From NCBI GenBank assembly GCA_947478005.1, contig CANJVG010000018.1, positions 1 through 39,073 of the forward strand: a stretch of DNA of 39,073 nt, written 5' to 3'. The notes below the pieces were generated by a model that made no database searches, was not told where the DNA came from, and saw only the letters and a list, made by a program, of their open reading frames with translations. This DNA comes from Bacteroidota bacterium. Lineage in GTDB: Bacteria > Bacteroidota > Bacteroidia > Chitinophagales > LD1. The stretch's first letter is position 1. The number at the start of each line of letters is the position of its first letter. The translations under genes and the position numbers were made by a program. Positions 7,260 to 30,408 of this stretch are shown piece by piece.

Positions 7260-7309
7260 AAAATGAGTACATGCGCCTATACAGTATTGTGTTGTAGCAT
7301 ATAGATTTG
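7260..7309 (+). promoter_or_regulatory. Palindromic operator and promoter of the hybrid kinase
   Basis: Operator 7260-7283: left arm AAAATGAG, core TACATGCG, right arm CCTATACA. The -7 box TAGATTTG is at 7302-7309, exactly 34 bp centre to centre. The predicted start near 7313 leaves a leader of about 106 nt, the longest among these promoters. Confidence 0.72.
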
Positions 7310-7418: not shown

Positions 7419-10400
7419 ATGAAACTGAATTTGGAAAAGAAAATACTGCTTGGGTTTGTTTTTTCAGCCGCATTGCTGGTGCTGGTGTATGTGCTGTTTA
7501 GCCGCAACAAAGAACGCTTTATAGAAAGCACCGAATTAGTCAATCACTCAAATGAGGTGATGGTTGAGCTGAATGCAATTTGGGTGGATATCACTAAATC
7601 GGAAACGAGCGAAAGGGGATATATTCTTACCGGTGGCAACGAATTTCTTGAGCCATTTAGGAATTGCAAATCAAATATAGCCAAACACTTTACACAGGTC
7701 AAATTGCTGACGAAAAATAGTCCGGCACAGCAAGAAAACCTCAGGCAAATGAGAGCAGGGCTAGACACGCTTATTAATTATTACGAAAGTTGTATTGAAT
7801 TAAGAAGAACACAAGGTTTTTTGCCTGCACAGAAAATTATTTCGGCCGGTTTTGGAAGAATAACCATGCAGGACATGGTACAGCACATAAATAGATCTAT
7901 AGCTATTGAAGATGAAATTCTTAAAACGAGGCAGTTAGTAAGCATTGAAGAGTCGCAAAGCTTTGCCCGCATTTTTTTTGTAATACTTATAATTATTGCG
8001 GGAGTCATGCTGTTTGTTTATTTTGTTGTAAGCAACAACCTCATTTCAATTAAAAAATCAGAGGAGAATGCTGCCGATAAATACTGGCACCTGAACGAAA
8101 TAGGCACCCTGGCCATATCCATGCAGGGCGATATGCTGGTTTCGGAAGTGGCACAGGTTATTATTAACCACATCGCCAGATGTCTGAATGCTCAGATAGG
8201 AGCCATTTATGTGGTGGATTCCAACAATATGAAACTGACCTTTTTGGCCGGTTATGCCGTTGATAAAACGAAGCGGGAAAGTCCGATAATAGTCTTGGGT
8301 GAAGGCTTGGTGGGGCAGTGTGCTGCCGAGCGGAAAACCATTGCGATTAGCCAGATACCGGAAAACTACTTTTTAATAGATACTGGCATAGGTGTAGTAA
8401 AGCCTCAAAATATTATGGCCTTACCGCTGGTTCACGAAGATATACTGGTGGGAGTTATTGAGTTGGGTACCATTGCTGCTTTTACCGACCTGCACAAATT
8501 GTATCTGGATAGCATATTAATCCCTGTTTCGATTGGACTGGCTGCCGGGCTGGCCCGCGAAAAAATGAGAGCACTGCTCGAAAAAACCCAGCAGCAGGCC
8601 GAGGAGCTGGAAGCTCAGCAGGAGGAACTTCGTCAAAGCAATGAAATCCTGTATGCCAAAACTGAGGCGCTAGAATTGTCGGAGTCCAAATTGAAAGCAC
8701 AGCAGGCAGAACTTCAACAGAGCAATAAGGAACTGGAAGAAAATACCAACCAGCTTGAAGAGCAAATGGAAAGGCTCGAAACAACCCAGATGGCGCTGGA
8801 AACCAAAACCCGTGACCTGGAGGTTACCAGCAAATACAAATCAGAGTTCCTCTCCAATATGTCACACGAGCTGCGCACTCCGCTAAACAGTATTCTCATT
8901 CTGGCACAGTTGCTTAGCGAAAACAAAAACAAAAACCTGGACGACAAACAAATGCAGTTTGCCAAAAACATTTGCAGTTCGGGTAACGACTTGCTGAGTC
9001 TGATTAACGAAATACTCGATCTGGCTAAAGTAGAAGCAGGTAAGGTTGAAATAGAGTCGGCTCAAATTTTGTTTAACGATGTGGTAACCGACATGCATAA
9101 CATGTTCGACATGGTAGCCAAAGAAAAAGACATTGATTTTAAAATTGAATTCGGCAGCGGCAAAACAGCGCAGGATGCTTTTGTAAGCGACAAACAGCGC
9201 GTTGAGCAGGTGTTGCGTAACCTGCTTTCGAATGCCTTTAAATTTACCGAAAAGAACGGTACTGTCAACCTGCATATTGATCAGCACGAAAACCGCAAAA
9301 GCATCAGTAACCCTAAACTTAAAAATGCCCCGCAAATTATTGCTTTTTCAGTTAATGATAATGGCATAGGTATACCTTTCAATAAACAGACTATTGTATT
9401 CGAAGCATTTCAGCAGGCCGATGGTTCAACTAAACGCAAATATGGAGGCACCGGTCTAGGGCTTTCTATCAGCCGCGAGTTGGCAGGCACATTGGGTGGT
9501 GAAATACAGTTAGAGAGCAGGGAAGGTGAAGGCTGCACTTTTACTTTTTATCTGCCCTTAACCTATGATGCTTCGAACGATTTGACTACTGCGGCTACAG
9601 CCGTAGTAAATAAAGAAAAACCGCGTAGGTTGGAAATTAAACCTGTTAAACGGGCCGTACATAATTCTGATGCGGATGAAGATGTTTTTGATGACCGGAA
9701 TACGGTTAACAACAATGATAAACTTGTGCTGATTATTGAAGATGATTTGGTGTTTGCAAAAATACTGCTCGATTTTGTGCGCGAAAGAAATTACAAGGGT
9801 ATCGTTGCTGCACAGGGCAATGCGGGTTTAAGTTTTGCACTTTTCTATCGCCCAGATGCCATTTTGCTCGATATGGGTCTGCCGCTGATGAACGGTGATG
9901 AAATTCTGAAATTATTAAAAAGTTCACCCGATCTGCGCCACATACCAGTCCAGATTATTTCGGCAGGCGACCATAAAAAGGCCGGTCTTGAGTTAGGGGC
10001 GTTTGACTTTCTGTCAAAACCCGTGCAGCGAAAAGATTTGCAATGCGCTTTTGATAATATAGAAGTTTTCATCGCCAAAAAAGTGAAACGCCTGCTGATT
10101 GTTGAAGATAACGAACTGCAGATACTAGCCATTAAGGAACTGATTGGCAACAGCGATGTACAAAGCTATTCGGCTACTACTGGCAGCGAAGCTCTCGACA
10201 TGATGCAGAAAGACCGCTACGATTGTATAGTGGTGGACTTAGGTCTGCCCGATATGCTGGGGTATGAACTGCTCGAAAAAATTAAGGCCAACCCCATGCT
10301 GAAAAACATTCCGATTATTGTTTATACCGGCCGTGACCTTGATAAAGATGAAGCCAACCGCCTGGCAAAACTGGCTGACACCGTAGTTTTAAAAACGGCC

Positions 10401-10889
10401 AACTCATACGAGCGTCTGCTTGATGAAACTACGCTGTTTCTGCACCGGGTTGAATCGAACCTGCCAAAAACAAAACAGACTATTATACGCAAGCTTCATA
10501 AAACCGATGAGATATTGAACGGCAAAAAAGTATTGCTGGTAGATGATGATATCCGCAATATTTTCTCGCTCAGCAGTGCCCTGGAGGCCGATGGTATACC
10601 TTGTATAACAGCCGAAAACGGCAAGGCTGCTCTTAAGATTTTGCAGGACACCCCTGATATTGATATTGTGCTGATGGACGTGATGATGCCTGAAATGAAT
10701 GGCTATGAAGCCACTATAGAAATCAGGAAAATGTCGAATTACGAAAAACTGCCGGTTATTGCCATTACCGCCAAAGCTATGAAAGGAGATCGCGAAAAAT
10801 GTTTGGCAGCAGGCATGTCAGACTTTATTACTAAACCAGTAAATGTGGAGCAGTTAATATCGCTTATGCGTGTATGGCTATACAAGTGA
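7419..10889 (+). CDS. CHASE3-GAF hybrid histidine kinase with three receivers
   Basis: A 1156-residue membrane hybrid kinase. Transmembrane segment about 8-28, an extracytoplasmic CHASE3 domain (about 35-175, with ETSERGYILTG), a second transmembrane segment about 183-207, a GAF domain (about 235-378), a long coiled coil (385-470), HisKA with His483 (NMSHELRTPLN), an ATPase domain (NLLSNAFKF, DNGIGIP, GGTGLGLSISR), then three receiver domains with phospho-acceptor Asp818, Asp940 and Asp1087 and switch Lys867, Lys992 and Lys1139. This architecture is common in Bacteroidota next to CheR/CheB genes. CheR follows 98 bp downstream and another kinase follows CheR, probably as one operon. Palindrome-controlled promoter upstream. 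Confidence 0.93.
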   Translation: MKLNLEKKILLGFVFSAALLVLVYVLFSRNKERFIESTELVNHSNEVMVELNAIWVDITKSETSERGYILTGGNEFLEPFRNCKSNIAKHFTQVKLLTKNSPAQQENLRQMRAGLDTLINYYESCIELRRTQGFLPAQKIISAGFGRITMQDMVQHINRSIAIEDEILKTRQLVSIEESQSFARIFFVILIIIAGVMLFVYFVVSNNLISIKKSEENAADKYWHLNEIGTLAISMQGDMLVSEVAQVIINHIARCLNAQIGAIYVVDSNNMKLTFLAGYAVDKTKRESPIIVLGEGLVGQCAAERKTIAISQIPENYFLIDTGIGVVKPQNIMALPLVHEDILVGVIELGTIAAFTDLHKLYLDSILIPVSIGLAAGLAREKMRALLEKTQQQAEELEAQQEELRQSNEILYAKTEALELSESKLKAQQAELQQSNKELEENTNQLEEQMERLETTQMALETKTRDLEVTSKYKSEFLSNMSHELRTPLNSILILAQLLSENKNKNLDDKQMQFAKNICSSGNDLLSLINEILDLAKVEAGKVEIESAQILFNDVVTDMHNMFDMVAKEKDIDFKIEFGSGKTAQDAFVSDKQRVEQVLRNLLSNAFKFTEKNGTVNLHIDQHENRKSISNPKLKNAPQIIAFSVNDNGIGIPFNKQTIVFEAFQQADGSTKRKYGGTGLGLSISRELAGTLGGEIQLESREGEGCTFTFYLPLTYDASNDLTTAATAVVNKEKPRRLEIKPVKRAVHNSDADEDVFDDRNTVNNNDKLVLIIEDDLVFAKILLDFVRERNYKGIVAAQGNAGLSFALFYRPDAILLDMGLPLMNGDEILKLLKSSPDLRHIPVQIISAGDHKKAGLELGAFDFLSKPVQRKDLQCAFDNIEVFIAKKVKRLLIVEDNELQILAIKELIGNSDVQSYSATTGSEALDMMQKDRYDCIVVDLGLPDMLGYELLEKIKANPMLKNIPIIVYTGRDLDKDEANRLAKLADTVVLKTANSYERLLDETTLFLHRVESNLPKTKQTIIRKLHKTDEILNGKKVLLVDDDIRNIFSLSSALEADGIPCITAENGKAALKILQDTPDIDIVLMDVMMPEMNGYEATIEIRKMSNYEKLPVIAITAKAMKGDREKCLAAGMSDFITKPVNVEQLISLMRVWLYK

Positions 10890-14718: not shown

Positions 14719-16641
14719 TTATTTACTTATCGGAAACGTTACCGTTATTTCAGTGCCTGCTCCTTCTTTGCTGCTTACATTTAGTATTCCTTTGTTGATG
14801 TCGGCAAAGTATTTTACAACCACCATTCCCAATCCGTTGCCCTTAATATGCTCTACATTAGAAGCTCTGAAAAACGATTGGAAAAGCAGATGCTTTTCTT
14901 TCTCCGGTATACCTAATCCAAAATCTTTTACCGTCAAGCTCCAGGATGTATCCCTAAAATCTAATTCCAGCACGGGGTTAGGCCGGCCCTGTGAGTATTT
15001 AAATGCGTTTGCAATTAAATTCCCCGTCAAACGATCAAGATGCATAGGATCCATCATAATGTCGGAAGGCTTACCATTTACTTGAATACTTATCATTCGT
15101 CCATCTGTTTGCAAGCGGTTATAATGCTCACAAAGATTTTTTAAATAATCAACTAAATCTATTTCTTCTTTTGCATTGCTAATTTTACCCCCCTCCAGTT
15201 TACCCCAGAATAGAATTTTTTCTATCAGGTCATTTAAGCGGCTTACTTCGCTCTTAATAATTTCGAACTGATTACCGAACACCGCATCATCTACTTTATT
15301 TTTCATGGCTTTCAGTTCCATTATCTCTACTCCGGTGTAAATAGAGGTCATGGGCGTTTTCATTTCATGCGAAACCAGTGAAATAAATTTTGATTTAAGC
15401 TGGCTGACTTCCTGCTCATCCTTTAGTACCTTGATAATAGCATTCTCTGCCCGCTTTCTTTCTTCTACCAGTCTCGAACTCGATATATAGGAGCTAGGCT
15501 TGCCATTATGGTCATAAATAATGCGCGAGGAGGTCTCTATAAGTCTCAATGCTCCTGTTTTTGTTTTAAGGTGGTGCTCAATAAACCTGTTTCCCTTTTC
15601 GCTTTCCAGCAGCTTTTTACGAAAAGCATCAATATTTTCAAACTCCCTTTCATCCAAAAACGACATGGCTGGTTTCCCGATTACTTCCTCGGGTTTAAAT
15701 CCTGTAACGTAAGTAAATGATGGAGACACATAAGTATAGTTTGTTTCAAGGTCATTGATGGTTACTATATCGCTTACATTATTGGCTAATAGTTCGAATT
15801 TTTCTGAATTTTCCTTTTGCATCGTAATATCCTGCAAAGTACCTGTCGTACCAGTTATATTTCCTGCCTCGTCAAAGCTTAGAATGGCATACACCTTCAT
15901 CCATTTGGTTTTGCCATCTTTTGCCACATATCTAATCTGGTGTGTACAATAGCTTTTTTCGCGATTTATTAAGGGAAGAAAAAGGTCATAATTGCGCTGC
16001 ACATCCTCCGGGTGCAGATAGGTAAAAAATAGCTTCCCTATACTTTCTTCCAAGGTAAACTGCATGATGTCTGTCCAGGCTTTATTCAAAAATGTCCAGT
16101 ATCCGTCATTGTCTGTTTGGAAAATAATGTCGTTCACGCTATTCACCACCATCTCAAAGCGCTCCTTAGTTTTGGCTAACTCCTTATTTTTGGTTATCCA
16201 TTCTCTGTTTATTTCTTCAGCATCATTTAATGACCGCTTGGTTGCCTGAATTAAAAAAAGTTGTTCTCCGGTATTATCACTCTTTGCAAAATCGTTAATG
16301 GATAAATGATGCTTCTCAAGGCTGAATTGGTGATTAATGATTGGTAGTCCAAGTAAAAGTATTTTTCCTTCCGGCAAATGAACCAGTTGATATTTAAATT
16401 GAATGGAGTTGTTCTTTGCCTTAAAGATGATAACATCCTTGGCATTAAAAATCTCAGCAACCGATAGTTGTTTGCCACAATATTCAGCTTCGAAAAAATC
16501 TAAAACCCGCTGACCGCAAACAATTTGAGGTACAGCTTTCGAAATACTTTTCCCAAAAGACTGTATTTTCGAATCGCTGTCAATAATTAAATGGAAGGGG
16601 AAAACTTCTTGTAAATCTTCCTCCGAAAATTGAATATCCAT
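14719..16641 (-). CDS. H-NOX-associated PAS histidine kinase
   Basis: A 640-residue soluble kinase. Residues about 5-135 match the H-NOX-associated (HNOBA) domain (FPFHLIIDSDSKIQSFGKSI, then LDFFEAE and GKILLLGLP), followed by a short coiled coil and PAS domains at about 160-275 and 280-395. HisKA has SLVSHEMKTPM with His425; the ATPase domain has NLIANAFKYS, DFGLGIP and GNGLGMVVVKY. Asn replaces the usual Thr in the G-N-G-L-G box. It starts one base after the H-NOX gene stop, so the two are co-transcribed and probably translationally coupled. In characterised pairs, NO-bound H-NOX changes the autophosphorylation of such a kinase. Confidence 0.93.
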   Translation of the reverse strand: MDIQFSEEDLQEVFPFHLIIDSDSKIQSFGKSISKAVPQIVCGQRVLDFFEAEYCGKQLSVAEIFNAKDVIIFKAKNNSIQFKYQLVHLPEGKILLLGLPIINHQFSLEKHHLSINDFAKSDNTGEQLFLIQATKRSLNDAEEINREWITKNKELAKTKERFEMVVNSVNDIIFQTDNDGYWTFLNKAWTDIMQFTLEESIGKLFFTYLHPEDVQRNYDLFLPLINREKSYCTHQIRYVAKDGKTKWMKVYAILSFDEAGNITGTTGTLQDITMQKENSEKFELLANNVSDIVTINDLETNYTYVSPSFTYVTGFKPEEVIGKPAMSFLDEREFENIDAFRKKLLESEKGNRFIEHHLKTKTGALRLIETSSRIIYDHNGKPSSYISSSRLVEERKRAENAIIKVLKDEQEVSQLKSKFISLVSHEMKTPMTSIYTGVEIMELKAMKNKVDDAVFGNQFEIIKSEVSRLNDLIEKILFWGKLEGGKISNAKEEIDLVDYLKNLCEHYNRLQTDGRMISIQVNGKPSDIMMDPMHLDRLTGNLIANAFKYSQGRPNPVLELDFRDTSWSLTVKDFGLGIPEKEKHLLFQSFFRASNVEHIKGNGLGMVVVKYFADINKGILNVSSKEGAGTEITVTFPISK

Positions 16642-16642
16642 C

Positions 16643-17182
16643 CTACCAGGTTACATTGAATGAATAAGTCGAATTGTCATTATCTTGTTTCACTAAATTA
16701 ACTTCGCAAGGCGTGTTAAAACGAAGGCCAAGGCCTTTAACCAGGCCCACTACCATAGGGGCCAGCCCAGCCCTTTTCGAACTATAGATAAGTGTAAGGC
16801 TTTTATCTGTCAAATCCTGTACCTCAAACGATGGAGGAATCAGATCCGGCATTACCGAGCCAACCTTCATGTGCATCAAATTAAGGTTCTTTAAAAAATC
16901 AGGGAGATTATCACCGGCCATCTTAAGCAAGTCTCCATAACCTTCTTTAGCTGTATGAAGTATCCAGTATTCTCCAAATTTTTCCAGCAATTCATTAGCC
17001 TCTATGTTCAAAACTTGCGAAGCTGCGCCTACCAGATCATACGAAACCTTGTCATCATAAGATTTCATGCTAATAAACCTGACTTCATCAAGCCCTGCTT
17101 CATTTTTTATTTTCTCCCAGGTGTCTGCTCCGTAGCCTTGTTTTACCATTTGTTCAAGAGCCAGGTTTATCATGCCATACAT
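16643..17182 (-). CDS. H-NOX heme nitric oxide/oxygen-binding protein
   Basis: A 179-residue soluble heme sensor of normal family length. The axial ligand His104 lies in NLNLMHMKVG, the conserved proline in MPDLIPPSFE (about 111-120), and the heme-propionate motif YxSxR is Tyr133-Ser135-Arg137 in LIYSSKRAGLAPMVVG. The start MYGMINLALEQMV is typical. It is the first gene of a two-gene operon with its HNOBA kinase. I see no palindromic operator directly upstream; the AT-rich 17190-17230 stretch probably holds the promoter, but no box stands out. Whether it binds NO only, or also O2, cannot be told with confidence from the sequence. Confidence 0.96.
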   Translation of the reverse strand: MYGMINLALEQMVKQGYGADTWEKIKNEAGLDEVRFISMKSYDDKVSYDLVGAASQVLNIEANELLEKFGEYWILHTAKEGYGDLLKMAGDNLPDFLKNLNLMHMKVGSVMPDLIPPSFEVQDLTDKSLTLIYSSKRAGLAPMVVGLVKGLGLRFNTPCEVNLVKQDNDNSTYSFNVTW

Positions 17183-17422
17183 ATTCTATCAGTTTTACTA
17201 TTTTAAAAATAAGTTGCAATACTAATCCGGATAAATATCGTTTCTTCTTTCGGATTTAAGCTAAAATAAGATTCAAGCCTAATTGGGGGTGGTGGATAAA
17301 ATTCCTTCTATAGAGGTATTAATCAATCTAGTTGCCCAGACAACTCATTAATTCCTTGGAAACAAAACCTCACAAATTAAACCTTCACATAGCTTATATC
17401 CCTGCAGCTGTGACCTGTATAT

Positions 17423-17483
17423 AAAAAAAAAGGAGCCGCCTCACATTAGACGACTCCCTAACTAAACACACACGCTAGTTGAG
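17423..17483 (-). ncRNA. Predicted small RNA 1 (two-hairpin family)
   Basis: On the minus strand a -7 box TATCTTTG (plus-strand 17487-17494) lies 34 bp from the palindrome centre at 17524.5. The predicted RNA of about 61 nt has a 5' hairpin (AACTA pairing with TAGTT) and ends in a terminator GGAGTCGTC/GGCGGCTCC plus nine T. The mismatches of this stem on the plus strand become G-U pairs on the minus strand, so the minus-strand RNA is the functional form. The same terminator recurs at 18349, 18564 and 30281. Confidence 0.6.
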
Positions 17484-17512
17484 CAGCAAAGATAATGCTT
17501 GTTACCCTCGCC

Positions 17513-17536
17513 CAAATAGGTATATGTGCCTATTTT
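17513..17536 (-). promoter_or_regulatory. Palindromic operator of small RNA 1
   Basis: Arms CAAATAGG and CCTATTTT around the core TATATGTG. Both arms use the TAGG variant and are symmetric to each other. It drives leftward, with the minus-strand -7 box TATCTTTG 34 bp away. No rightward -7 box sits at the matching distance. Confidence 0.65.
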
Positions 17537-17577
17537 GAATGAGCTAAGTTGTCAATCTGTTATTATTAATTCACTAA

Positions 17578-17627
17578 AAATTGAGTACATGTGCCTATTT
17601 TCTCATCACATATTCACTCTATTTTTG
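17578..17627 (+). promoter_or_regulatory. Palindromic operator and promoter of the PAS protein
   Basis: Operator 17578-17601: left arm AAATTGAG, core TACATGTG, right arm CCTATTTT. The -7 box TATTTTTG is at 17620-17627, exactly 34 bp centre to centre. The predicted start near 17631 gives a leader of about 47 nt. Confidence 0.75.
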
Positions 17628-17677
17628 CCATCCATGATTTAAATCATCAGTTTTTATTTTGAATCAACGAATACTAA

Positions 17678-18082
17678 ATGAGAAAGAAAAAAATAAATAA
17701 GGCTGAAGTTTTTTTTGCCAAGATGGAAAATCAAGATGTAACTATTCATAGTCCAATGCTCGTTACCATCACCGATGCCGAAGGCAAAATAGTGTGCGTA
17801 GATGATAGCTTTTGTCAATTATCAAAATACACGAAGCAGGAGCTTATTGGTAATACCCATAGAATTTTAAATTCAGGATATCATGGCGCTGATTTTTTTG
17901 GTGCAATGTGGAAAAACATTAAAAAGGCAAAAACCTGGTCCAGTGAAGTTAGAAATAAGGCAAAAGACGGCTCCTTTTTTTGGGTAGAATGTAAAATAAT
18001 TCCCTTTCCCCATGCAAACGGAAAGCCATGGCGCTACATATCTGTTATGAAGGATATAACTGCAACAAAAATAGCTGCATAG
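17678..18082 (+). CDS. Stand-alone PAS domain protein
   Basis: A 134-residue protein that is little more than one PAS domain (about 20-130): SPMLVTITDAEGKIVCVDDS, RILNSGYHGADFFGAMW, VRNKAKDGSFFWVECK and a final ISVMKDIT. It closely resembles the second PAS domain of the kinase at 5229. Similar PAS domains bind flavin or heme, but no cofactor ligand can be assigned here. Without an output domain it may act by pairing with PAS kinases nearby, for example by forming mixed dimers (inference). The N-terminus is very basic (RKKKINK). It has its own palindrome-controlled promoter. Confidence 0.88.
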   Translation: MRKKKINKAEVFFAKMENQDVTIHSPMLVTITDAEGKIVCVDDSFCQLSKYTKQELIGNTHRILNSGYHGADFFGAMWKNIKKAKTWSSEVRNKAKDGSFFWVECKIIPFPHANGKPWRYISVMKDITATKIAA

Positions 18083-18150
18083 CTTCTGCTATTTGTAAAC
18101 TCATTTCGTCCTGCCGGTGTTTTGCATTTTTGTTTTATCCCCTACCTTCT

Positions 18151-18171
18151 ACTAGCTTATTGTAAGCTAGT
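18151..18171 (+). terminator. Hairpin downstream of the PAS gene
   Basis: ACTAGCTTA and TAAGCTAGT form a perfect 9-bp stem with a 3-base loop, 68 bp after the PAS stop codon. No strong T-tract follows, so it is a possible terminator or an RNA-stabilising hairpin. The stretch from 18172 to 18339 holds nothing I can name. Confidence 0.4.
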
Positions 18172-18339
18172 TAATACCTTACAATCTGGCTTAGAATATT
18201 GAATGGCCATCATAGTTGTTCAAGCGAAATGCAATGCCAAAATTGACGATGGCGCAGATAGTACCACCGCAGGTGCAAAGCATTATTATCCAGGCAATAA
18301 GCCTTTTCTTTTCAAAAATTACCATGCTATGCTGATTTT

Positions 18340-18402
18340 AAAAAAAAAGGAGCCGCCCGACCGAGGCGACTCCACTATTAATAACCAAAACCCATTTTGG
18401 TG
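18340..18402 (-). ncRNA. Predicted small RNA 2 (two-hairpin family)
   Basis: The minus-strand -7 box TATATTTG (plus-strand 18406-18413) is 34 bp from the palindrome centre at 18443.5. The RNA of about 60 nt carries a perfect 5' hairpin CCAAAA/TTTTGG with loop TGGG, and the shared terminator GGAGTCGCC/GGCGGCTCC with nine T. The 5' hairpin sequence differs from those of the other three copies while the architecture is kept. Confidence 0.62.
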
Positions 18403-18431
18403 ATGCAAATATACCATGGGCTTATTCTATA

Positions 18432-18455
18432 AAAATGAGCAGGTTTACTCATTTT
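18432..18455 (-). promoter_or_regulatory. Palindromic operator of small RNA 2
   Basis: Perfect outer arms AAAATGAG and CTCATTTT; the core CAGGTTTA deviates from the usual ACATGT pattern. The -7 box lies only on the minus side, 34 bp away. No gene follows on the plus side, so the palindrome here serves only the small RNA. Confidence 0.65.
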
Positions 18456-18555
18456 TATAACCCAAGGCTTATTGCTGAATACAAAGGATAAATACAATCC
18501 ATCGCTACCTTTCTTTTCCTTCTTTTTCGCCCTTAAAGTTTATCACTTCAGGTAC

Positions 18556-18611
18556 AAAAAAAAGGAGCCGCCCTACCCAGGCGACTCCGATGAATCAAAT
18601 GCAATTTACGC
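18556..18611 (-). ncRNA. Predicted small RNA 3 (two-hairpin family)
   Basis: The minus-strand -7 box TAGATTTG (plus-strand 18614-18621) is 34 bp from the palindrome centre at 18651.5. The RNA of about 55 nt has a small 5' hairpin (AAAT/ATTT) and the shared terminator GGAGTCGCC/GGCGGCTCC with eight T. It is transcribed away from the XRE gene at 18702 from the same palindrome. Confidence 0.62.
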
Positions 18612-18639
18612 TGCAAATCTAGCTAACTATCTAAACCTT

Positions 18640-18663
18640 AAAATGAGCAGATGTACTCATTTT
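18640..18663. promoter_or_regulatory. Bidirectional palindromic operator (small RNA 3 and XRE gene)
   Basis: Perfect arms AAAATGAG and CTCATTTT around CAGATGTA, extended by TT and AA outside. The leftward -7 box (18614-18621) and the rightward one (TTTATTTG, 18682-18689) are each 34 bp from the centre, so two divergent promoters share one site symmetrically. The XRE leader is only about 10-15 nt. Confidence 0.75.
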
Positions 18664-18701
18664 AATGCTTACCCTATTCAGTTTATTTGCATTTGATATA
18701 A

Positions 18702-19028
18702 ATGTATATGACAGGACGAGATATAACTACAAGGATTAAGGAAATACGTACTTTTTTTGGGTTAAAACAGGGAGAAGTAGCGGATCGCTTAGGCATTACA
18801 CAACAGGCCTACAGTTGCGCAGAGAAAAGCGCCAACATCCAACTTGATACCTTGCTAAAACTTGCCCAAATACTTAAGGTACATCCTTCATTTATTATGG
18901 CGGTAGAAGTACCTGTGACGGATGAAAATATAAGCATATACAGCAATGGGATTCCGTCAAACCTGATGAGTGAGGTAGTCAGCCTTAAATCGAAAGTTAG
19001 TTTTTATAGAGGCCTGATCCAGCTATAG
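18702..19028 (+). CDS. XRE-family HTH regulator, copy 1
   Basis: A 108-residue protein. Residues about 7-65 form an HTH_3 (XRE) domain: ITTRIKEIRTFFGLKQGEVA then DRLGITQQAYSCAEKS. The recognition helix TQQAYS-x-x-E is nearly the same as in the paralogue at 19137 (TQQSYS-x-x-E). The C-terminal tail ends in a conserved KVSFYRGLI motif, possibly for dimerisation. The start may be ATG 18702 or 18708; both fall just after the predicted transcription start. No toxin partner is adjacent. With its own palindromic operator it is a good candidate for an autoregulated controller of the palindrome regulon, though binding is not shown by sequence alone. Confidence 0.88.
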   Translation: MYMTGRDITTRIKEIRTFFGLKQGEVADRLGITQQAYSCAEKSANIQLDTLLKLAQILKVHPSFIMAVEVPVTDENISIYSNGIPSNLMSEVVSLKSKVSFYRGLIQL

Positions 19029-19070
19029 TATCGATATTTATTTAGAGCCCGTTGAGCCATGGGCTTCACA

Positions 19071-19120
19071 AAAATGAGGCAATGTGCTCATTTTTAAGAA
19101 GCCAATGCAGCATATTTTTG
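19071..19120 (+). promoter_or_regulatory. Palindromic operator and promoter of XRE copy 2
   Basis: Operator 19071-19094: perfect arms AAAATGAG and CTCATTTT, core GCAATGTG. The -7 box TATTTTTG is at 19113-19120, exactly 34 bp centre to centre. The predicted leader is only about 13 nt. Confidence 0.75.
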
Positions 19121-19136
19121 TTGAAAATATTAACCA

Positions 19137-19487
19137 ATGGAAATTACAGGCCCTGCAATAGCTGCTCGAATTAAACAAATACGTTTATACCGTGGAATAA
19201 AACAAGACTATGCTGCTAGTATACTAGAGATGACGCAGCAGTCTTATAGCTTGATAGAGAGTAATCAGGACCTTCGACTGTCCACTATACTCAATGTGTC
19301 CAAAATGCTCGATGTAAATCCCTTATTTGTTATGGCGGTAGATATTCCCATTAACGATACTACCATCAATAGATTCCAACAAGAACTCAACGTGGGGGTG
19401 TTTGACGAGTTGGAAAAATGCCGGGAAAAAATTGATTTTTATAAAGGTATATTGGGTTCCAAATTAAGTGAGTCGCTATTTCATTAA
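19137..19487 (+). CDS. XRE-family HTH regulator, copy 2
   Basis: A 116-residue paralogue of the preceding gene with the same layout: HTH_3 domain at about 6-63 (IAARIKQIRLYRGIKQDYAA, then MTQQSYSLIES), a conserved linker (NPLFVMAVDIPI versus HPSFIMAVEVPV) and a C-terminal KIDFYKGIL motif. It has its own operator and promoter and is not simply co-transcribed with copy 1. The shared recognition-helix residues suggest that both proteins read the same DNA. It ends 12 bp from the convergent response-regulator gene. A role as repressor or activator of the palindromic sites is inference. Confidence 0.88.
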   Translation: MEITGPAIAARIKQIRLYRGIKQDYAASILEMTQQSYSLIESNQDLRLSTILNVSKMLDVNPLFVMAVDIPINDTTINRFQQELNVGVFDELEKCREKIDFYKGILGSKLSESLFH

Positions 19488-19499
19488 TTGCCTTTGATT

Positions 19500-20180
19500 T
19501 TATTTACTGTCTTTTTTAGTTGGCTGCAATAATCCGGCATTCTGGCATTCTACCGCAAACCTAAGCAACGAGTTCTGTGCCTTAAAGCCCAGTCTTTTTA
19601 TCATATTGTAGCGGTGGTTTTTTATCGTGCTTTGGCTTAAATGAAGATCGGCTGAAATTTTGCTGGTGAGTATGCTCTTTGCCAATTCGGCCAATACCAG
19701 TTTTTCCGTTTTCGTCAACTTGACCAGCTCATCCTTAAGTAGTTTGTTTCTGCTTCCTTTCGCATTATCTGCCAGCTCCTTTGCTTTGACCAATACATCT
19801 AGTACCAAATCATCCCTTTTTCCAAGTCTTACTTCAATTGCTTTTAATAACTCTACATATTTAAAAGGCTTAGTGACATAGTCATCGGCCCCTAAATTCA
19901 TCCCATGTCTGAAATCTTCGCTTTCTGTTTTTGCGGTCAAAAACAAAAAAGGAATGTTTTTAAGACGGTCTATTTGCTTAATATTCATCAATAACTCAGT
20001 CCCATCCATTATGGGCATCCGGATATCGCTTAATATTAAGTCATAATGAGCATCCTTTAATAGCATCAACGCATCGATACCATTTTCGGCAGAATTTGCC
20101 GAATATCCCGATATTTCAAGAATATCAACCAGGTTTTTTCGGATGTTTTGTTCATCCTCTACTACGAGTATCTTTTTCAT
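19500..20180 (-). CDS. LuxR/NarL-type response regulator
   Basis: A 226-residue regulator. The receiver (about 1-118) has Glu8-Asp9 pocket residues (VVEDEQN), phospho-acceptor Asp52 (LSDIRMP), Thr82 (FLTAKT) and Lys104 (YVTKPF). A helical linker is followed by an HTH of LuxR type (about 153-215: LTKTEKLVLAELAK, ISADLHLSQSTIKNHRYNM, KRLGFKAQNSLLRFA). It overlaps the kinase stop codon by one base (TAATG), so the two are translationally coupled and form a cognate pair. The operon is controlled by the palindromic site at 22038. Its DNA targets are unknown. Confidence 0.93.
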   Translation of the reverse strand: MKKILVVEDEQNIRKNLVDILEISGYSANSAENGIDALMLLKDAHYDLILSDIRMPIMDGTELLMNIKQIDRLKNIPFLFLTAKTESEDFRHGMNLGADDYVTKPFKYVELLKAIEVRLGKRDDLVLDVLVKAKELADNAKGSRNKLLKDELVKLTKTEKLVLAELAKSILTSKISADLHLSQSTIKNHRYNMIKRLGFKAQNSLLRFAVECQNAGLLQPTKKDSK

Positions 20181-21991
20181 TATTGTTTAATTGGTAATTC
20201 AAATTTAAAAATACTTCCTTTTCCTTCCTCGCTTTCAAATTCAATTTGGCCTCCATGCATTTCTACAAATTGTTTCACTATCGATAAGCCAAGCCCTGTT
20301 CCGGCAATATCCTGCGTATTGACCGATCTGAAAAATGATTCAAATATGTTTTTTTGGTCTCCGGCCGGTATCCCGATTCCATAGTCCGTTATTTTAAACA
20401 GAACGCTTTCTTTACTAAAAGTAATCTCTATTTCAGGAGTCTTTTTGCTTTTTTGCGAATACTTCAGGGCATTGATTAATACATTCGAAAGAATGTGCTC
20501 TAACAGTCTTTTGTCAAAAATAAATTGCGCTTCAGCACCATTTATTTTCATGACAATCGTTCGACCAAATTGCTCAACCCGGCTGCTTTGAACCACCTCC
20601 TTTACCAAACTTATGCAGTCGTTCAAGGCAGGCTTGTAATCAATCTTGCCCGAATTGATTTTACCCAATACCAGCACATTATCCATTAGCTCCTTCATTC
20701 GGTCCACCTCATACTCCATTTGGTTTAAGTGCCTGCCCAGTTTATCCTTGCTTATAACGACATCTCGATTAAACAAAAGTTTAATTATATCCAGGCTCGA
20801 TTGAATGCTGGTGAGTGGTGTACGGAATTCATGGGAGGTAAGATTCACGAAATGACTTTTCAATTCATTCAGACTTTTTTCCTTCGCCAGGGAGCTTATC
20901 AAATTTTTCTCGGCCTCTTTGGCGTCCGTTATGTCCCAAAACAGGTAAACATAATTGACTATCCCTGTCTTTTCCTGAACGGGGCTAACGCTCATACTCA
21001 ACCATACATCTTCACCATCTGTTTTTTGCAGATGGATATCGGCCTTGCTTGAACCTACTTGGTCAATATTTAGCTGCAATCCTTGAAGGCATTCAGCATG
21101 CATTCCCATCTTTTCGAAAATTTCGAATAGCCGCGGACCAGTTGCGCCTTCCTGCTTCCTTTCAAAAATGGTCTCCGCCTTTTGATTCATCCACTCTACT
21201 TCGTGCAGGTCGTTGGTTATTACCACCGCATTATTGGTATTGCTCGCTACCAGGGCTAATTTGTTTATTTCAATTTCTCTCCGCTTCTTTTCGTTTATGT
21301 TTCGCATGATGCAAATCAAACCTCCATGGGCCAGGCTTGTGAGCGTAATTTCCTGTTGAATGGGGCTGCCATCTTTGCATATCCCCTGCGTTTCGCCCTG
21401 CCATCTTCCATCCCGGGCCAATTGAGGAAAAAGCTCTTCCGCTATTCGTATAGCCTCGTCTTCAGAGTATATCACCCGCCAGCTTTTGCCCAATAATTCG
21501 GCCTCGGTTTCATAGCCAAAATTAGTTAGGTGCTTCTCGTTCAGGTAATAGTAATTCCCTTCGGCATTCAGCAGCGCCACACCATCCATAGTAGAGGCAA
21601 CGGCAGCGCTCAGGTCATCCAGTTTGGCCTGCTGTTCTATTTGCTTCTCAATATTATTGAAGGCAGCCGAAATCATTCCCGAAGGTAGAGTCGTTCCGTG
21701 GACGTAAGCGGGAAAAGTACTGCCATCTTTTCGAAGCATCGTTACCATGCCTTCCCATTTACCATCGGTCTTGATCAAATTAAGCGTAGGGAGTAATTTC
21801 TTGTATTCCTCTTCACTATATTTGAAACTCCAATGCTGACCTATCAGTTCGTCTTTGCTATAGCCCGTTGTTTCGCAGGCACTGCTGTTAACATACACAA
21901 ATATACCGTTACTATCTAAAATATATAAAGCTGTTGGCAAACAATCCAGCACCACATTTTGGGCAATTATATTAGCGGAATCAATGCTCAT
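20180..21991 (-). CDS. Triple-PAS sensor histidine kinase
   Basis: A 603-residue soluble kinase with three PAS domains at about 12-118 (LDCLPTALYILDSNGIFVYV), 127-238 and 243-360, a short coiled coil, HisKA with NLTSHEFRTPL (His387) and an ATPase domain with NVLINALKYS, DYGIGIP and GTGLGLSIVKQF. It has no membrane segment or receiver. Its stop shares one base with the start of the LuxR-type regulator downstream. The predicted leader is only about 17 nt from the palindrome-controlled promoter. The signal sensed is not evident, as no cofactor residues can be assigned with confidence. Confidence 0.93.
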   Translation of the reverse strand: MSIDSANIIAQNVVLDCLPTALYILDSNGIFVYVNSSACETTGYSKDELIGQHWSFKYSEEEYKKLLPTLNLIKTDGKWEGMVTMLRKDGSTFPAYVHGTTLPSGMISAAFNNIEKQIEQQAKLDDLSAAVASTMDGVALLNAEGNYYYLNEKHLTNFGYETEAELLGKSWRVIYSEDEAIRIAEELFPQLARDGRWQGETQGICKDGSPIQQEITLTSLAHGGLICIMRNINEKKRREIEINKLALVASNTNNAVVITNDLHEVEWMNQKAETIFERKQEGATGPRLFEIFEKMGMHAECLQGLQLNIDQVGSSKADIHLQKTDGEDVWLSMSVSPVQEKTGIVNYVYLFWDITDAKEAEKNLISSLAKEKSLNELKSHFVNLTSHEFRTPLTSIQSSLDIIKLLFNRDVVISKDKLGRHLNQMEYEVDRMKELMDNVLVLGKINSGKIDYKPALNDCISLVKEVVQSSRVEQFGRTIVMKINGAEAQFIFDKRLLEHILSNVLINALKYSQKSKKTPEIEITFSKESVLFKITDYGIGIPAGDQKNIFESFFRSVNTQDIAGTGLGLSIVKQFVEMHGGQIEFESEEGKGSIFKFELPIKQ

Positions 21992-22011
21992 AGGTAATCT
22001 TTTATAAAGCG

Positions 22012-22061
22012 CAAAATTAAGCGGGCGGGGCCTAATAAAAATGAGTACATGTGCCTATTTT
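22012..22061 (-). promoter_or_regulatory. Palindromic operator and promoter of the triple-PAS kinase operon
   Basis: Operator 22038-22061: arms AAAATGAG and CCTATTTT, core TACATGTG. On the minus strand the -7 box TAATTTTG lies at plus-strand 22012-22019, exactly 34 bp centre to centre. Confidence 0.75.
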
Positions 22062-22080
22062 TGGTACATGTACTCATTTT
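22057..22080. promoter_or_regulatory. Overlapping second palindrome half-site
   Basis: Core TACATGTA and right arm CTCATTTT are perfect but the left arm is ATTTTTGG, so this is a half-site. It overlaps the outer arm of the first operator, with centres 19 bp apart. It could strengthen binding or serve a rightward promoter; no good -7 box sits 34 bp away. Confidence 0.5.
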
Positions 22081-22269
22081 TTGGCGGAGTGGCTTATCTT
22101 TTCGCTGGTATTTAATCTGCATGCCGGATAAGAGTCTCTGGCTGGTTTGCAAGCTTAAAATAATAATCTCGCAACCCAACAGAGTGATGGAGTAGGGGAC
22201 TTGTTAAATAGTCGACATCTAACCTATGGTCACATTTTGTATTGGCAGGCAGTGGTACCTAAAGAGTAG

Positions 22270-22627
22270 AGGCTCATTTCTAATTAAAAACCTTCGATTT
22301 ATAATTAAAGCGGCTTCATTTATAAGTAATTTTGAGCGATTTATAATTATAGTTCGTTGATTTATGTCTAAAGTTCATCGATTTATGATTATAAATCCTC
22401 GATCTTTAGTTATAGTTCGTTGATTTATGTCTAAAGTTCGTTGATTTGTAAGTAAAGTTCAACGATTTATGATTATAAATCCTCGATCTTTAGTTATAGT
22501 TCATTGATTTATATTTACAAAAGCCCGATTTATAATCATTGTTCGGTCATTTATAGCTATAGTTCATCGATTTATGTTTATAGTTCAGTCATTTATGATT
22601 ACAAATTCTCGATTTGTAATTATAGAT
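22270..22627. repeat. Array of about seventeen 21-bp degenerate tandem repeats
   Basis: Units align on a G/C-ATTTAT core (for example TTCGTTGATTTATGTCTAAA and TTCATCGATTTATGATTATA) that recurs every 21 bp; the core base falls at 22296, 22317, 22338, 22359 and 22380. A 63-bp block is nearly duplicated (around 22359 and 22422). The array is very AT-rich, is flanked by operators on both sides and has stop codons in the frames I followed, so I regard it as non-coding. A period of two DNA helical turns would place each unit on the same face. Confidence 0.85.
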
Positions 22628-22686
22628 TTATTAGAAAAGCGCATTTTTATTCAAAAAATGCACATAAGTGGCAGTTTGTCTGTTTT

Positions 22687-22812
22687 TTAATCTAAGGCTT
22701 TGCGGTTTCGAACAATTGGAACCGTAAAATAGAAACTGGTACCTGTCCCAATCCGGCTTGCCTGGAACACCCATTGGCTCATTAAACCTCGGGAGCTATG
22801 ACTAAGGTCATG
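22687..22812 (-). pseudogene. Histidine kinase remnant (C-terminal end)
   Basis: The minus strand reads HDLSHSSRG, then MSQWVFQASRIGTGTSFYFT followed by VPIVRNRKALD and a stop. The second part is the last strand and helix of a HATPase_c domain (compare AESRPGQGATFYFTV in the kinase at 5229), and HDLS at the front may be the H-box brought close by a large internal deletion. No start or catalytic boxes remain. Only this scrap, the 21-bp array and operators occupy the 22081-23041 gap. Confidence 0.6.
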
Positions 22813-22918
22813 TTGTTTTGGGTAACTTGCTTAAAAAGAAACTGTATAAGATTGCATACAGAATTCTGCTTGCGAAAAACTCCACTACTTTCGGTTTTTA
22901 GACTTCGTTGGCCCAAAA

Positions 22919-22942
22919 AACATAGGCACATGTGCTCATTTT
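22919..22942. promoter_or_regulatory. Palindromic operator upstream of the collagen-like gene, distal
   Basis: Arms AACATAGG and CTCATTTT, core CACATGTG. Its centre is 31 bp, about three helical turns, from that of the next site. No -7 box sits at the usual 34-bp distance on either side. Confidence 0.65.
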
Positions 22943-22949
22943 TCTATTT

Positions 22950-22973
22950 TTTGTAGGTACATGTACTCAATTT
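22950..22973. promoter_or_regulatory. Palindromic operator upstream of the collagen-like gene, proximal
   Basis: Left arm TTTGTAGG, core TACATGTA, right arm CTCAATTT. At the usual distance I find only TTTAGAAA, not a -7 box; the best candidate is TAGTATTG at 23009-23016, 51 bp from the centre. The arrangement therefore differs from the other promoters, and the site may work in another way here. Confidence 0.6.
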
Positions 22974-23041
22974 TGGCTGTTTCCAAAGGGTTTTAGAAAC
23001 CTTAGACATAGTATTGCGTTTCCTTAACCCAAAACGCAATT

Positions 23042-26000
23042 ATGATATTTCACACCCAAATTTTAAAAAAGATAAAGACATTCGGCTCTTTATTTCTTGT
23101 ACTAACCAATTCGGCCATCGCCCAAAATGTGGGGATAGGCACCAACCAGCCGAAAACCAAACTGGATGTTAACGGAGCGCTTTCGGCCAGGGTAACTTCC
23201 TTGCCTGCCGCATCCGCTGTAACAATACCCGATGATGTGACACTTTTCCGGTTAACCAACACAGCCGGTGGAAGCACTACGGCATTATCCATCGCTAATC
23301 CTAAGGAAGGACAGTTTTTAACAATCATCAATGAAGATGACAATTCGGCTACATTAAACGGGCATACCATACCTTCCGGAACATCGAGCAGTCCGAGTAT
23401 CGTAAACTTGTTAAACATAGGTGGAACATTAACCGGTTGGAAAACAACCGGAGATAACACCGTAACGTCTGGCCCTGTTGGGGCTACAGGTGCTGCTGTA
23501 TTAAACGGAACTTGGGCTCCAACGGGCGGACAAGGAAGCAACGGAGATTTCTTTATCAATACAACCACTAAATTTATATATGGCCCTAAAGCTGGAGGTG
23601 CATGGCCAACCGGTGTTTCTTTAGTAGGTTCTACAGGAGCAACAGGAACAGCCGGAACAAATGGTACAAATGGAACTAACGGTGCAGCCGGAGCCGCAGG
23701 TGCTACAGGAACAGCCGGAACCAACGGTACAAACGGAACAAATGGTGCAGCTGGAGCCACGGGTGCTACAGGAATAGCCGGTACAAACGGAACCAATGGT
23801 GCAGTAGGAGCAACAGGAGCGCAGGGTATTCAAGGTGCTACAGGAACTGCCGGAACAAATGGTACCAACGGAACAAACGGTGCAGCTGGAGCCACGGGTG
23901 CTACAGGAACAGCCGGTACAAACGGAACCAATGGTGCTGTAGGTGCTACAGGCTCGCAAGGTATTCAGGGTATAACAGGGGCTACCGGAACTGCCGGAAC
24001 CAACGGTACCAACGGAACAAATGGTGCAGTAGGTGCAACAGGAACTGCGGGAACAAACGGAACCAACGGTGCAGTAGGAGCAACAGGCGCTGCTGTATTA
24101 AATGGAACTTCGGCTCCAACAGGTGGCCAGGGCAGCAACGGTGATTTCTTTATCAATACAACTACTAAATTTATATATGGCCCTAAAGCTGCAGGTGCAT
24201 GGCCAACCGGTGCTTCCTTAGTAGGTTCTACAGGAGCTACAGGAACGAACGGTACCAACGGAACCAACGGTGCAGCCGGAGCCACAGGTGCAACAGGAAC
24301 AAACGGAACCAACGGAACTAACGGTGCAGTCGGTGTTACCGGAGCAACCGGTACTGCCGGAACCAACGGTGTAGCTGGTGCTACAGGTACAGCCGGAACT
24401 AACGGTACTAACGGAGCGGTAGGTGCTACAGGACCTACAGGCGCGGCAGGGCCAACAGGAACAATATCGGGCTTAACCAACGGTCAGGTAGTTTACGGTT
24501 CGGCTATTGGTGGAGCCGCTCAAAGCAATTCATTTTTTTGGGATGCGACTAACAGTAGATTAGGTGTAGGAACCAACACACCTGCTAACACATTCTCGGT
24601 GGGAAGTGGTAGCCAGTTTCAGTCGGATTACAGTGGCAATGTGAGCATTGCATCGAGTGGAAGTCTTACCCTTACAGGAACACAAACGGGGCAGCTATTT
24701 TTCCCCAATAGTACAGGCAGAGTATCGCAAAGCAATTCTTTAGTATGGGATATTACGAATTCACGTTTGGGTATAGGAACCAACACGCCTGCCAACACAT
24801 TCTCGGTGGGAAGTGGTAGCCAGTTTCAGTCGGATTACAGTGGCAATGTGAGTATTGCATCGAGTGGAAGCCTTACCCTTACAGGAACACAAACAGGGCA
24901 GTTATTTTTCCCCAACAGCACAGGCAGAGTATCGCAAAGCAATTCTTTAATATGGGATATCACGAATTCTCGTTTGGGTATAGGAACCAATGTTCCTGCA
25001 AATACTTTCTCAGTGGGTTCATCGAACCAGTTTCAGGTAAACTCAAATGGTGATTTAGTCAAGATCAAGAACGTTTCATACTCTTTCCCCATTTCTCAGG
25101 CTTCTGCTAACCAGGTGTTAACCAATGATGGTGCCGGTAACCTTTCCTGGGCTGCCGCATCTACCAACTTAAACTTAACCGGTGCAGTAACTTCTGTGGG
25201 TAGCACTACCTCCTTAGGTTCATTCACCTCAGCCAACTTATCAGGTGCAATGGGCGATGAAACAGGTAGCGGTGTGGCGGTATTTGCTACTTCACCAACC
25301 CTGGTAACCCCCAATCTTGGAACACCCTCGGCAGCTATCTTAACCAACGCTACAGGCTTGCCTTTAACTTCAGGTGTTACGGGTGTTTTACCGGTAGCTA
25401 ATGGAGGAACGGGGCTTTCAGCGGCACCTTCCAATGGACAGATTGATATTGGTAACGGTACAGGGTTTACAAGAGCTGCTTTAACAGCCGGTACCGGAAT
25501 TTCAATAACCAATGGTGTAGGTTCAATTACTGTGGCTACAACCGGAGCCGCCCCAACAGGCGCAGCCGGTGGCGATTTAACCGGAACTTATCCTAACCCG
25601 AGTATTGCTACATCGGCCGTTACTACATTAAAAATTGCCGATTTGAACGTTACGAATGCAAAAATTGCAGACAATGCTATAAACAATCCAAAGATTCTTG
25701 ATAATGCGGTAACCAATTCAAAAATTCTTGATGATGCTGTAAACACCAACAAGATTTTGAATTCAAGTGTTACCTACGCCAAAATTCAAAATGTAACTGG
25801 AAATCGTCTGTTAGGAAACCCTACAGGTGCTGCAGCAGTTCCTTCTGAAATCTCTTTAGGAACCGGACTCAGTTTTGTGGGCAGTACGCTTACCGGCACC
25901 GCTGGCAGTGTTACGAGTGTATCCGTGGCAACCGCCAACGGTTTTTCGGGCACAGTAGCTACTGCTACCAGTACTCCGGCCATTACTCTTAAAACAACAG

Positions 26001-27952: not shown

Positions 27953-27956
27953 GCTT

Positions 27957-28012
27957 TAATCGGGCTGCGGTATCATTCTGCTCTTTGCAAGAATGATACC
28001 GCAGCCCGATTA
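27957..28012. terminator. Long perfect hairpin after the collagen-like gene
   Basis: A 23-bp perfect stem (left strand 27957-27979, right strand 27990-28012) with a 10-base loop begins 5 bp after the stop codon. No T-tract follows, so it may be a strong 3' stabiliser or a factor-dependent terminator. The rest of the gap to 28205 shows nothing clear. Confidence 0.7.
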
Positions 28013-28205
28013 TACCCAACAATAGGGACAGGACGTTTCTCTCAAAAAAATATAGTCTGTTTTTTTTAGTGAAGAGGAAATGGGTTCAAGATTAAAATGA
28101 ACGCCTTTTCTATTCCCAAGCGAACTATGCCCGATTTGTCTGTCAGCCTTAAATCGAATAAGAAATAAAGTCATTTGGATTAATGTATAATAAAAATTTT
28201 ATAGT

Positions 28206-30095: not shown

Positions 30096-30148
30096 TATTT
30101 CAGCATTCACCGATATACTAAGAGCCTACCATCGGTAGTAATCCCCTC

Positions 30149-30190
30149 AATCACAAAGGAAGCCTTCAATCGAAGGCTTCCTTTGTGATT
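30149..30190. terminator. Strong hairpin terminator after the T9SS gene
   Basis: A 19-bp perfect stem (30149-30167 with 30172-30190) and a 4-base loop, about 54 bp after the stop codon. It is symmetric and could act for either strand. Confidence 0.75.
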
Positions 30191-30272
30191 AGGGTAAAAG
30201 TGGATACACCCTCTGTAGCCCAAACCCTTAGGCCTGGGAAAAAGATTCTCAGCTGCTAAGATAGTATAGGGC

Positions 30273-30330
30273 AAAAAAAAGAGCCGTCTAACCAGGACGA
30301 CTCTCTAACCATATTAAACCAATAATCTGT
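30273..30330 (-). ncRNA. Predicted small RNA 4 (two-hairpin family)
   Basis: The shared terminator appears on the minus strand as GAGTCGTC/GACGGCTC followed by eight T. Upstream in the RNA is a weak hairpin (ATTA/TAAT). The palindrome at 30360 lies at the same distance as in copies 1-3, but the -7 box at 34 bp is poor (TAATAGTA, plus-strand 30334-30341), so expression is less certain. Confidence 0.5.
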
Positions 30331-30359: not shown

Positions 30360-30408
30360 GTTATGAGCATATGTGCCTATTTGCACTGTTTTATTGTTTA
30401 TATTTTTG
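30360..30408 (+). promoter_or_regulatory. Palindromic operator and promoter ahead of a gene cassette
   Basis: Operator 30360-30383: left arm GTTATGAG, core CATATGTG, right arm CCTATTTG. The -7 box TATTTTTG is at 30401-30408, 33 bp centre to centre. The predicted start near 30412 lies about 15 bp before the cassette-like junction GTTATAGCCAATA (30427), so this promoter reads into the cassette. Confidence 0.68.

Follow-up and report, generated by a model that had tools for sequence, protein, structure and literature searches.

In streptococci, the response regulator CiaR drives both protein genes and small RNAs from a common site; five of its fifteen promoters belong to sRNAs, and these csRNAs had earlier been found as a binding site plus a terminator between genes (PMC8186281). 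Likewise, the multicopy sRNA family LhrC1-5 of Listeria is dependent on a single two-component system, LisRK (PMC4132741), and in Pseudomonas the redundant RNAs RsmX, RsmY and RsmZ are linked to a response regulator, GacA, and a palindromic upstream element (PMC2375449). From the phylum Bacteroidota, FopS has been described as 14 paralogous sRNAs of Bacteroides thetaiotaomicron, about 65-70 nt long, with intergenic copies and a 5' part that pairs near start codons (PMC11697453), and SnoA of the same species is a regulatory RNA with a link to nitrosative stress (PMC13370916, preprint). The regulators of Bacteroidota sRNAs are little known, the GibS factor being called 'elusive' and the FopS one 'unknown' (PMC11697453).

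The DNA analysed here is contig C18 (CANJVG010000018.1, 39,073 nt; hereafter the window) of a Bacteroidota bacterium (GCA_947478005.1, 230 contigs, 3.99 Mb; G000 in what follows), and it contains four short minus-strand units, W1 to W4 (Table 1). These units probably belong to a new multicopy family of sRNAs, minimal RNAs with one hairpin under a two-component activator, and the best reading by analogy is that they would work like csRNAs, LhrC or FopS without membership in any of them. CiaR uses the direct repeat TTTAAG-N5-TTTAAG in streptococci (PMC8186281), whereas here a palindrome is found together with a LuxR-type regulator and a -7 box TAnnTTTG, in the Bacteroidota. The LhrC RNAs, from another phylum, differ in their CU-rich target sites, of which there are three, and in a LisR element that lies upstream of -53 (PMC4132741); a sequence relation of the units to LhrC was sought through Rfam only. 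FopS has a conserved 5' seed, standard promoters and a regulator given as unknown (PMC11697453), whereas here the promoter and the terminator are common to the copies and several arms differ; the arms of W1-W4 have no such common seed, which sets them apart from FopS as described. SnoA differs in being a single locus that has a link to HcpR and lies antisense to the hcp promoter, and no palindrome-terminator unit is described for it (PMC13370916).

The comparison with Rfam that the initial annotation had called for, Flavo-1, GibS and BTnc201 included, gave no match at the gathering threshold in the window or in the loci L027, L030, L017, L145 and L147, and a known Rfam family is rejected on this ground; at E up to 5 there are eight matches in 17000-18900, for example GibS with 24 bits against 115 and BTnc201 with 21 against 105. 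Among the open-literature papers listed, judged by title and abstract beginning, none describes the palindrome, the terminator family or an H-NOX-linked Bacteroidota sRNA family, which is a weak indication, with subscription papers mostly outside its range.

The initial annotation had placed four minus-strand units in the window, and all four are found where it had put them. Read on the minus strand, each consists of a palindrome, 22 nt, a -7 octamer, 26-33 nt, a stem-loop and a T-run. The palindrome claimed for each unit is indeed present upstream of all four, and the size prediction from the box, with the start assumed, is 53-61 nt, in agreement with the proposed 55-65 nt or so. The claim of a -7 box holds for W1-W3, in which a perfect TAnnTTTG lies 20 nt past the palindrome 20-mer (22 nt past the 16-mer core), but not for W4, where the octamer at the expected place is TAATAGTA, with 3/6 positions matched and no TAnnTTTG.

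Table 1. Positions of the units, of palindromes with their boxes and of selected genes in the window.
Feature	Position	Strand	Remarks
W1, whole unit	17532-17423	minus	
W1 palindrome 16-mer, TAGGCACATATACCTA	17517..17532	minus	
W1 -7 box, TATCTTTG	17487..17494	minus	22 nt past 16-mer
W1 predicted RNA	17423..17482	minus	start inferred from box; 3' end is the T-run
W1 terminator stem	17459-17430	minus	
W2, whole unit	18451-18340	minus	
W2 palindrome 16-mer, TGAGTAAACCTGCTCA	18436..18451	minus	
W2 -7 box, TATATTTG	18406..18413	minus	
W2 predicted RNA	18340..18401	minus	terminator stem 18373-18349
W3, whole unit	18659-18556	minus	
W3 palindrome 16-mer	18644..18659	minus	common to W3 (minus) and XRE gene 18702 (plus)
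W3 -7 box, TAGATTTG	18614..18621	minus	
W3 predicted RNA	18556..18609	minus	terminator stem 18588-18564
W4, whole unit	30379-30273	minus	
W4 palindrome 16-mer	30364..30379	minus	common to W4 (minus) and gene 30472 (plus)
W4 predicted RNA, subtype B	30273..30329	minus	terminator stem 30306-30278
Palindrome sequence, TGAGTACATGTACTCA			candidate site for regulator or XRE proteins
Palindrome 16-mer	7264..7279	plus	before CHASE3/GAF hybrid kinase 7419-10889; box TAGATTTG at 22 nt
Palindrome 16-mer	17582..17597	plus	before PAS gene 17678-18082; box TATTTTTG at 22 nt
Palindrome	19073-19092		upstream of second XRE gene 19137; box TATTTTTG
Palindrome 16-mer	22042..22057	minus	before kinase-regulator pair; box TAATTTTG at 22 nt
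PAS histidine kinase with HNOBA match	14719..16641	minus	
H-NOX (HNOB) gene	16643..17182	minus	downstream of W1
XRE (HTH_3) gene	18702..19028	plus	rival palindrome-binding candidate
Second XRE (HTH_3) gene	19137..19487	plus	
Response regulator, receiver and GerE (LuxR-type) domains	19500..20180	minus	proposed palindrome-binding activator
Sensor histidine kinase before regulator	20180..21991	minus	by translation reading; palindromes 22042 and 22061 upstream

Relaxed scans and a covariance model (R1, built from twelve units, which it then recovers) yield ten units in the genome, namely W1-W4, four on C33 and one each on C154 and C56. On C33, three units stand in a tandem array that repeats every ~180 bp (C33:15045-15514, locus L027), which has linkers that are 88% identical and points toward the end of a gene on the opposite strand; two further copies on C33 look decayed (22327-22432, E 3e-4; 22961-23068, E 0.12). 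Among 60 relatives, strong matches to R1 occur in G000 and in G001, another member of the same genus, only; at E<=1 some match is seen in 15 of the 60, the best outside these two genomes having E 0.019 (G052). G001 contains two units (G001a and G001b) with the same spacing and related stems, and its cluster is kept as well, with kinase, regulator, XRE, H-NOX, H-NOX kinase and receiver genes (Pfam for XRE, H-NOX and receiver). One of its units lies between a divergent XRE gene and the H-NOX gene, the corresponding stretch of the window, from XRE 18702 to H-NOX, containing W3, W2, the PAS gene and W1, while the second is divergent from the receiver gene. In G016, also of this genus, a unit with a different stem sequence, GCCGCACC-GAAA-GGTGCGGC, is divergent from a BLUF gene, and a second one is weaker and longer (G016b, L147:6274, 111 nt, weak box). 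With ten copies, an array, a terminator whose genome-wide matches are nearly all units, stem covariation and an equal architecture in a related species, the earlier proposal of multi-copy small-RNA genes tied to the palindrome is well supported at the level of sequence. A de novo palindrome-box scan of nine loci of eight other genus members returned none, an uninformative result, as its palindrome filter was strict enough to lose even the known sites in the window and in L145. A box-plus-terminator scan pointed to a further short-RNA candidate at L200:1536 (G012), which is without this palindrome.

The palindrome has the 7-2-7 form TGAGYAC-NN-GTRCTCA, a layout that I take to resemble NarL-type sites. 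The window has its 20-mer at 14 places, with 27 strand matches where 0.5 would be expected. In the genome as a whole, allowing the 16-mer core one mismatch yields 52 strand matches, many of them on C18 and C33, against 11 for the reversed control. Examined at offsets 10-29, the 30 sides of 15 places in the window (one with four mismatches) have a perfect TAnnTTTG in nine cases, seven exactly 20 nt past the 20-mer and two one base off. The seven exact boxes face W1, W2, W3, the hybrid kinase gene 7419, the PAS gene 17678, the XRE gene 19137 and the kinase-regulator pair at 21991, and the other two face a lipoprotein-like gene near 619 and gene 30472. Pooling loci gives 54 palindromes with 106 sides and 22 perfect boxes, of which 16 lie at offset 22, two a single base away (21 and 23) and four elsewhere; this pooled count is biased because the G001 and G016 loci in it were chosen for a palindrome-plus-box match, whereas the window count is unbiased. 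All ten units have a palindrome with at most one mismatch at an equal distance, that is, several related putative sRNA genes each lie behind a copy of one putative regulator site. The -7 box itself is found at the fixed spacing in W1-W3, G001a and G001b and is near-canonical in C33b and C33c, and W4, C33a, C33d, C154 and C56 have no canonical box. In Flavobacterium psychrophilum the TAnnTTTG box is at -12 to -5 (PMC9723704), which would put the palindrome centre near -42.5, presumably the position of an activator in direct contact with the polymerase.

Some other features of the palindromes may be mentioned. They occur as close pairs at 22042-22076, before the kinase-regulator pair, and at 22923-22969, before a collagen-repeat gene (23042-27952) that has no good -7 box at the usual distance from its palindromes. 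Two paralogous small-protein genes, 4713-5066 and L029:435-788 (C140), each have a palindrome ~85 bp upstream. At 619-3069, three lipoprotein-like genes, of which the second and third are alike by eye, stand in a row behind a palindrome at 598, and the first probably starts later than listed, because its ATG at 619 precedes the -7 box at 637. Between palindrome and -7 region, the subtype-B spacers of W4 (30342-30363) and, at the same place, of C154 and the C33 units contain inverted repeats such as CCTTTTTTGTAAAAAGG.

The pattern GAGTCGYC-N3-12-GRCGGCTC is found four times in the window against 0.00 in shuffles, which confirms the common terminator of the initial annotation. A relaxed version has 11 matches genome-wide and none in the reversed control; as ten of the 11 are these units, the hairpin is a mark of the units, and a stock genome-wide terminator is rejected. 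The eleventh match, C9:37800, differs in its loop and in the greater length of its stem. When 16000-31000 was scanned for terminators in general, there was no enrichment, with 15 hits against an expectation of 14.8; the terminators of W1-W4 are the first four entries of that scan. The stems have 10-12 pairs and are followed by a T-run; a G+C-rich stem, a T-run on one strand and a promoter 50-70 nt upstream are what an sRNA gene ending in an intrinsic terminator would have, and the units conform to this, some of them with a non-canonical box. In an alignment of 12 rows, from which G016a (other stem sequence), G016b and the two decayed C33 copies were left out, 114 of 120 stem cells (95%) pair, and pairing falls to 38-68% when the partner is shifted by 1-3 columns. 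Three pairs are altered on both sides (A-U/G-C, C-G/U-A, U-A/C-G), and one more varies between U-G, U-A and C-G. Covariation scores 0.348, whereas shuffles give 0.253 and one in 500 of them reaches the observed value; counts of stem pairs or pair types in the same alignment are not above shuffles. The earlier argument for the strand was right, as positions that would be A-C on the plus strand pair as U-G, U-A or C-G on the minus strand. By their stems the units fall into subtype A (W1-W3, G001a and G001b; GGAGTCG) and subtype B (W4 and the C33, C154 and C56 units; AGAGTCG-like). Rsm RNAs bind and titrate a protein; in comparison with them, GGA at the stem base is restricted to subtype A and is absent from the subtype-B units.

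The units had also been described as two-hairpin RNAs, and of the two hairpins that of the terminator alone is supported. Thirteen 5' arms (G016b and the two decayed C33 copies left out) fold no better than dinucleotide shuffles, with a mean z of 0.06, a lowest value of -1.51 and 0.32, -0.72, 0.27 and -0.39 for the window units, and the predicted whole-RNA folds of W3, C33a, C33d, C56, G001a and G001b contain no 5' stem. A conserved 5' hairpin is rejected for these two reasons, and because the arms fold like shuffled sequence, the RNAs are regarded as one-hairpin RNAs with a single-stranded arm. It had further been stated that the 5' hairpin differs in each copy, and for the 5' part as such this is not confirmed, since W4 shares TTGGTT(A/T)AANNTGGTTAGA with three copies on other contigs; the arms of W1, W2, W3 and W4 do differ, and these four subtype-B copies alone have one arm in common. 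With regard to the distinct targets suggested earlier, a search for complements of the shared arm (at most three mismatches) showed no excess: the reversed control gave 37 matches and the arm 17, among which five are units or a decayed copy. In the C33 array, 61 of 69 linker columns are identical against 43 of 61 for spacer plus arm (p 0.015) and 28 of 37 for the arm alone (p 0.10), which is suggestive of arms that change faster than linkers.

As to what binds the palindrome, a palindrome plus box (at most one mismatch) is present among 60 relatives in G000, G001 and G016, and once in G019, a member of the same family with no regulator orthologue. Of 40 relatives, only G000, G001 (54%) and G016 (49%) have a full-length orthologue of the regulator; 35 of these 40 have matches at E<=1e-20, and outside the three genomes such matches cover part of the protein, the listed spans ending by residue 189. 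Within the genus, the three of 18 members that have palindrome plus box are also the three with the full-length regulator (p 0.0012 if genomes are independent, relatedness ignored), a co-occurrence of three genomes that are maybe one clade. Strict searches found the regulator in 3 of 396 sampled genomes of the order (E<=1e-45) and in 1 of 395 of the phylum, the window's own (E<=1e-42). A search of genome contigs with the regulator gave 66 loci, the best-scoring one with 45% over residues 1-119, and none is taken as an orthologue. In the helix-turn-helix region, N-H-R and N-M are invariant across the three regulators. Both the window and G001 have a palindrome site before the kinase-regulator pair, and in G016 the site and the regulator share a strand, the site being 1.9 kb upstream. 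The LuxR-type regulator is tied to the palindrome by association within the genus, as the protein that putatively binds this site. That the XRE proteins (18702, 19137) bind it instead, with the rest of the circuit unchanged, is unlikely, even though the palindrome precedes both XRE genes and XRE homologues adjoin palindrome sites in G001 and G016: such homologues (E<=1e-8) exist in 12 of 18 genus members, nine of which are without palindrome plus box, and XRE therefore tracks the motif less well than the full-length regulator, which is confined to the three members with palindrome plus box.

Promoter architecture, copy number, terminator covariation, the neighbourhood in the second species and the co-occurrence with the regulator can be read from the DNA; for transcription, regulator binding, signal, base-pairing and targets, I infer the following. 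The sensor kinases of the cluster, perhaps including the H-NOX branch, would phosphorylate the LuxR-type response regulator (19500-20180), which would then bind TGAGYAC-NN-GTRCTCA centred near -42.5 and activate the -7-box promoter. The resulting RNA of 50-65 nt would stop at its own intrinsic terminator, and would consist of this one hairpin preceded by a 5' arm that is single-stranded and roughly 22-32 nt long. This arm is likely the pairing part, by analogy with FopS (PMC11697453), csRNAs (PMC8186281) and LhrC (PMC4132741), and, as FopS does, would most likely base-pair with translation-start regions of target mRNAs (PMC11697453). A single signal would in this way turn on protein genes and about ten RNAs together, and W1, G001a and C33a may additionally act as leaders of H-NOX and Rrf2 genes. 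If true, this would be a Bacteroidota response-regulator circuit that uses one palindrome to activate sensor genes together with about ten tiny RNAs, of which three form an array, a counterpart in this phylum of the csRNA, LhrC and Rsm circuits and a compact means for one signal to turn on many small RNAs. The fixed spacing, with the palindrome centre near -42.5, could offer a clean promoter for activation studies in the phylum, and a constant promoter and terminator around a variable arm could serve as a natural scaffold on which to study the diversification of sRNA target regions.

Alternatively, the units may be promoter-proximal attenuators, that is, terminated leaders of the next gene with the short RNA as a by-product. 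A same-strand H-NOX gene follows W1 after 248 nt and G001a after 95 nt, the G001 leader has no -7-like box of at least 5/6 and the W1 leader only 5/6 boxes, and an Rrf2 gene begins 76 nt past C33a with one 5/6 box between. However, W2, W3, W4 and G001b have no close same-strand gene after them, and three of the four C33 units form an array aimed at the end of an opposite-strand gene; at most some copies fit this explanation, which is improbable for the family. It is similarly improbable that the units merely stop unwanted transcription from the back side of a two-way promoter, with an RNA that has no function: an opposite-facing -7 box is also present at the palindromes of W3, W4, C154 and both G001 units, but W2, C33b, C33c, C33d and C56 have no opposite-facing box of at least 5/6, a promoter plus terminator is repeated three times in the array, and W1-W3 have a perfect TAnnTTTG at fixed spacing where seven of ten reverse sides need none.

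The tandem array with its 88%-identical linkers, the two decayed copies and Y1 (IS200-like) transposase genes near C56 and C33a would agree with subtype-B copies being a small mobile or amplified repeat with promoter and terminator, rather than selected sRNAs. I consider this very improbable, as outside the array the similarity (by eye) spans palindrome to T-run plus a few bases, the stem has compensatory changes, and in two species subtype A is retained in the neighbourhood of XRE and H-NOX genes. Still smaller is the chance that the units are near-leaderless messengers for signal peptides of the sensor network, mostly hydrophobic and 3-7 residues long. Mini-ORFs before the terminator would encode MILFFS and MIIVF (G001), MYGFFFR (G016), MGFGY (W2) and MFMNND (C33c), and the ATG in G001a, G001b and G016a, which begins 6 nt past the -7 box, is no more than two bases from where the RNA is expected to start. 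Of 13 units, 5 have an ATG mini-ORF, whereas shuffles give 1.3 (p 0.003), and 11 have one that starts with ATG, GTG or TTG, against 3.8, figures that are inflated because the units are related. Against peptides, subtype-B mini-ORFs differ by non-synonymous changes; W3 and W4 have no mini-ORF.

The genes around the units offer some indication of the input to the proposed sRNA circuit. The W1 RNA is positioned 5' of the H-NOX gene on the same strand, the window also encodes a bacterial-type globin, a BLUF protein, DUF3050, CheR and the collagen-repeat protein, and an Rrf2 regulator gene is 76 nt past C33a; NO (H-NOX, Rrf2, globin) is a plausible input signal, and light (BLUF) a plausible second one. 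The genome has two matches to RRM_1, the class of the Bacteroides protein RbpB (PMC11697453). C33 carries two near-identical Rrf2-type genes, L027:11758-12192 (Pfam), the one behind the unit, and L028:5652-6086 (by eye), and the contig with unit C154 encodes a protein that by eye resembles the BLUF protein of the window (L030:8159-8515). The Y1 (IS200-like) transposase genes are at L017:529-960, near C56, and L027:10936-11397, near C33a. In the window itself, 3081-3488 reads as a transposase fragment, presumably IS6-like.
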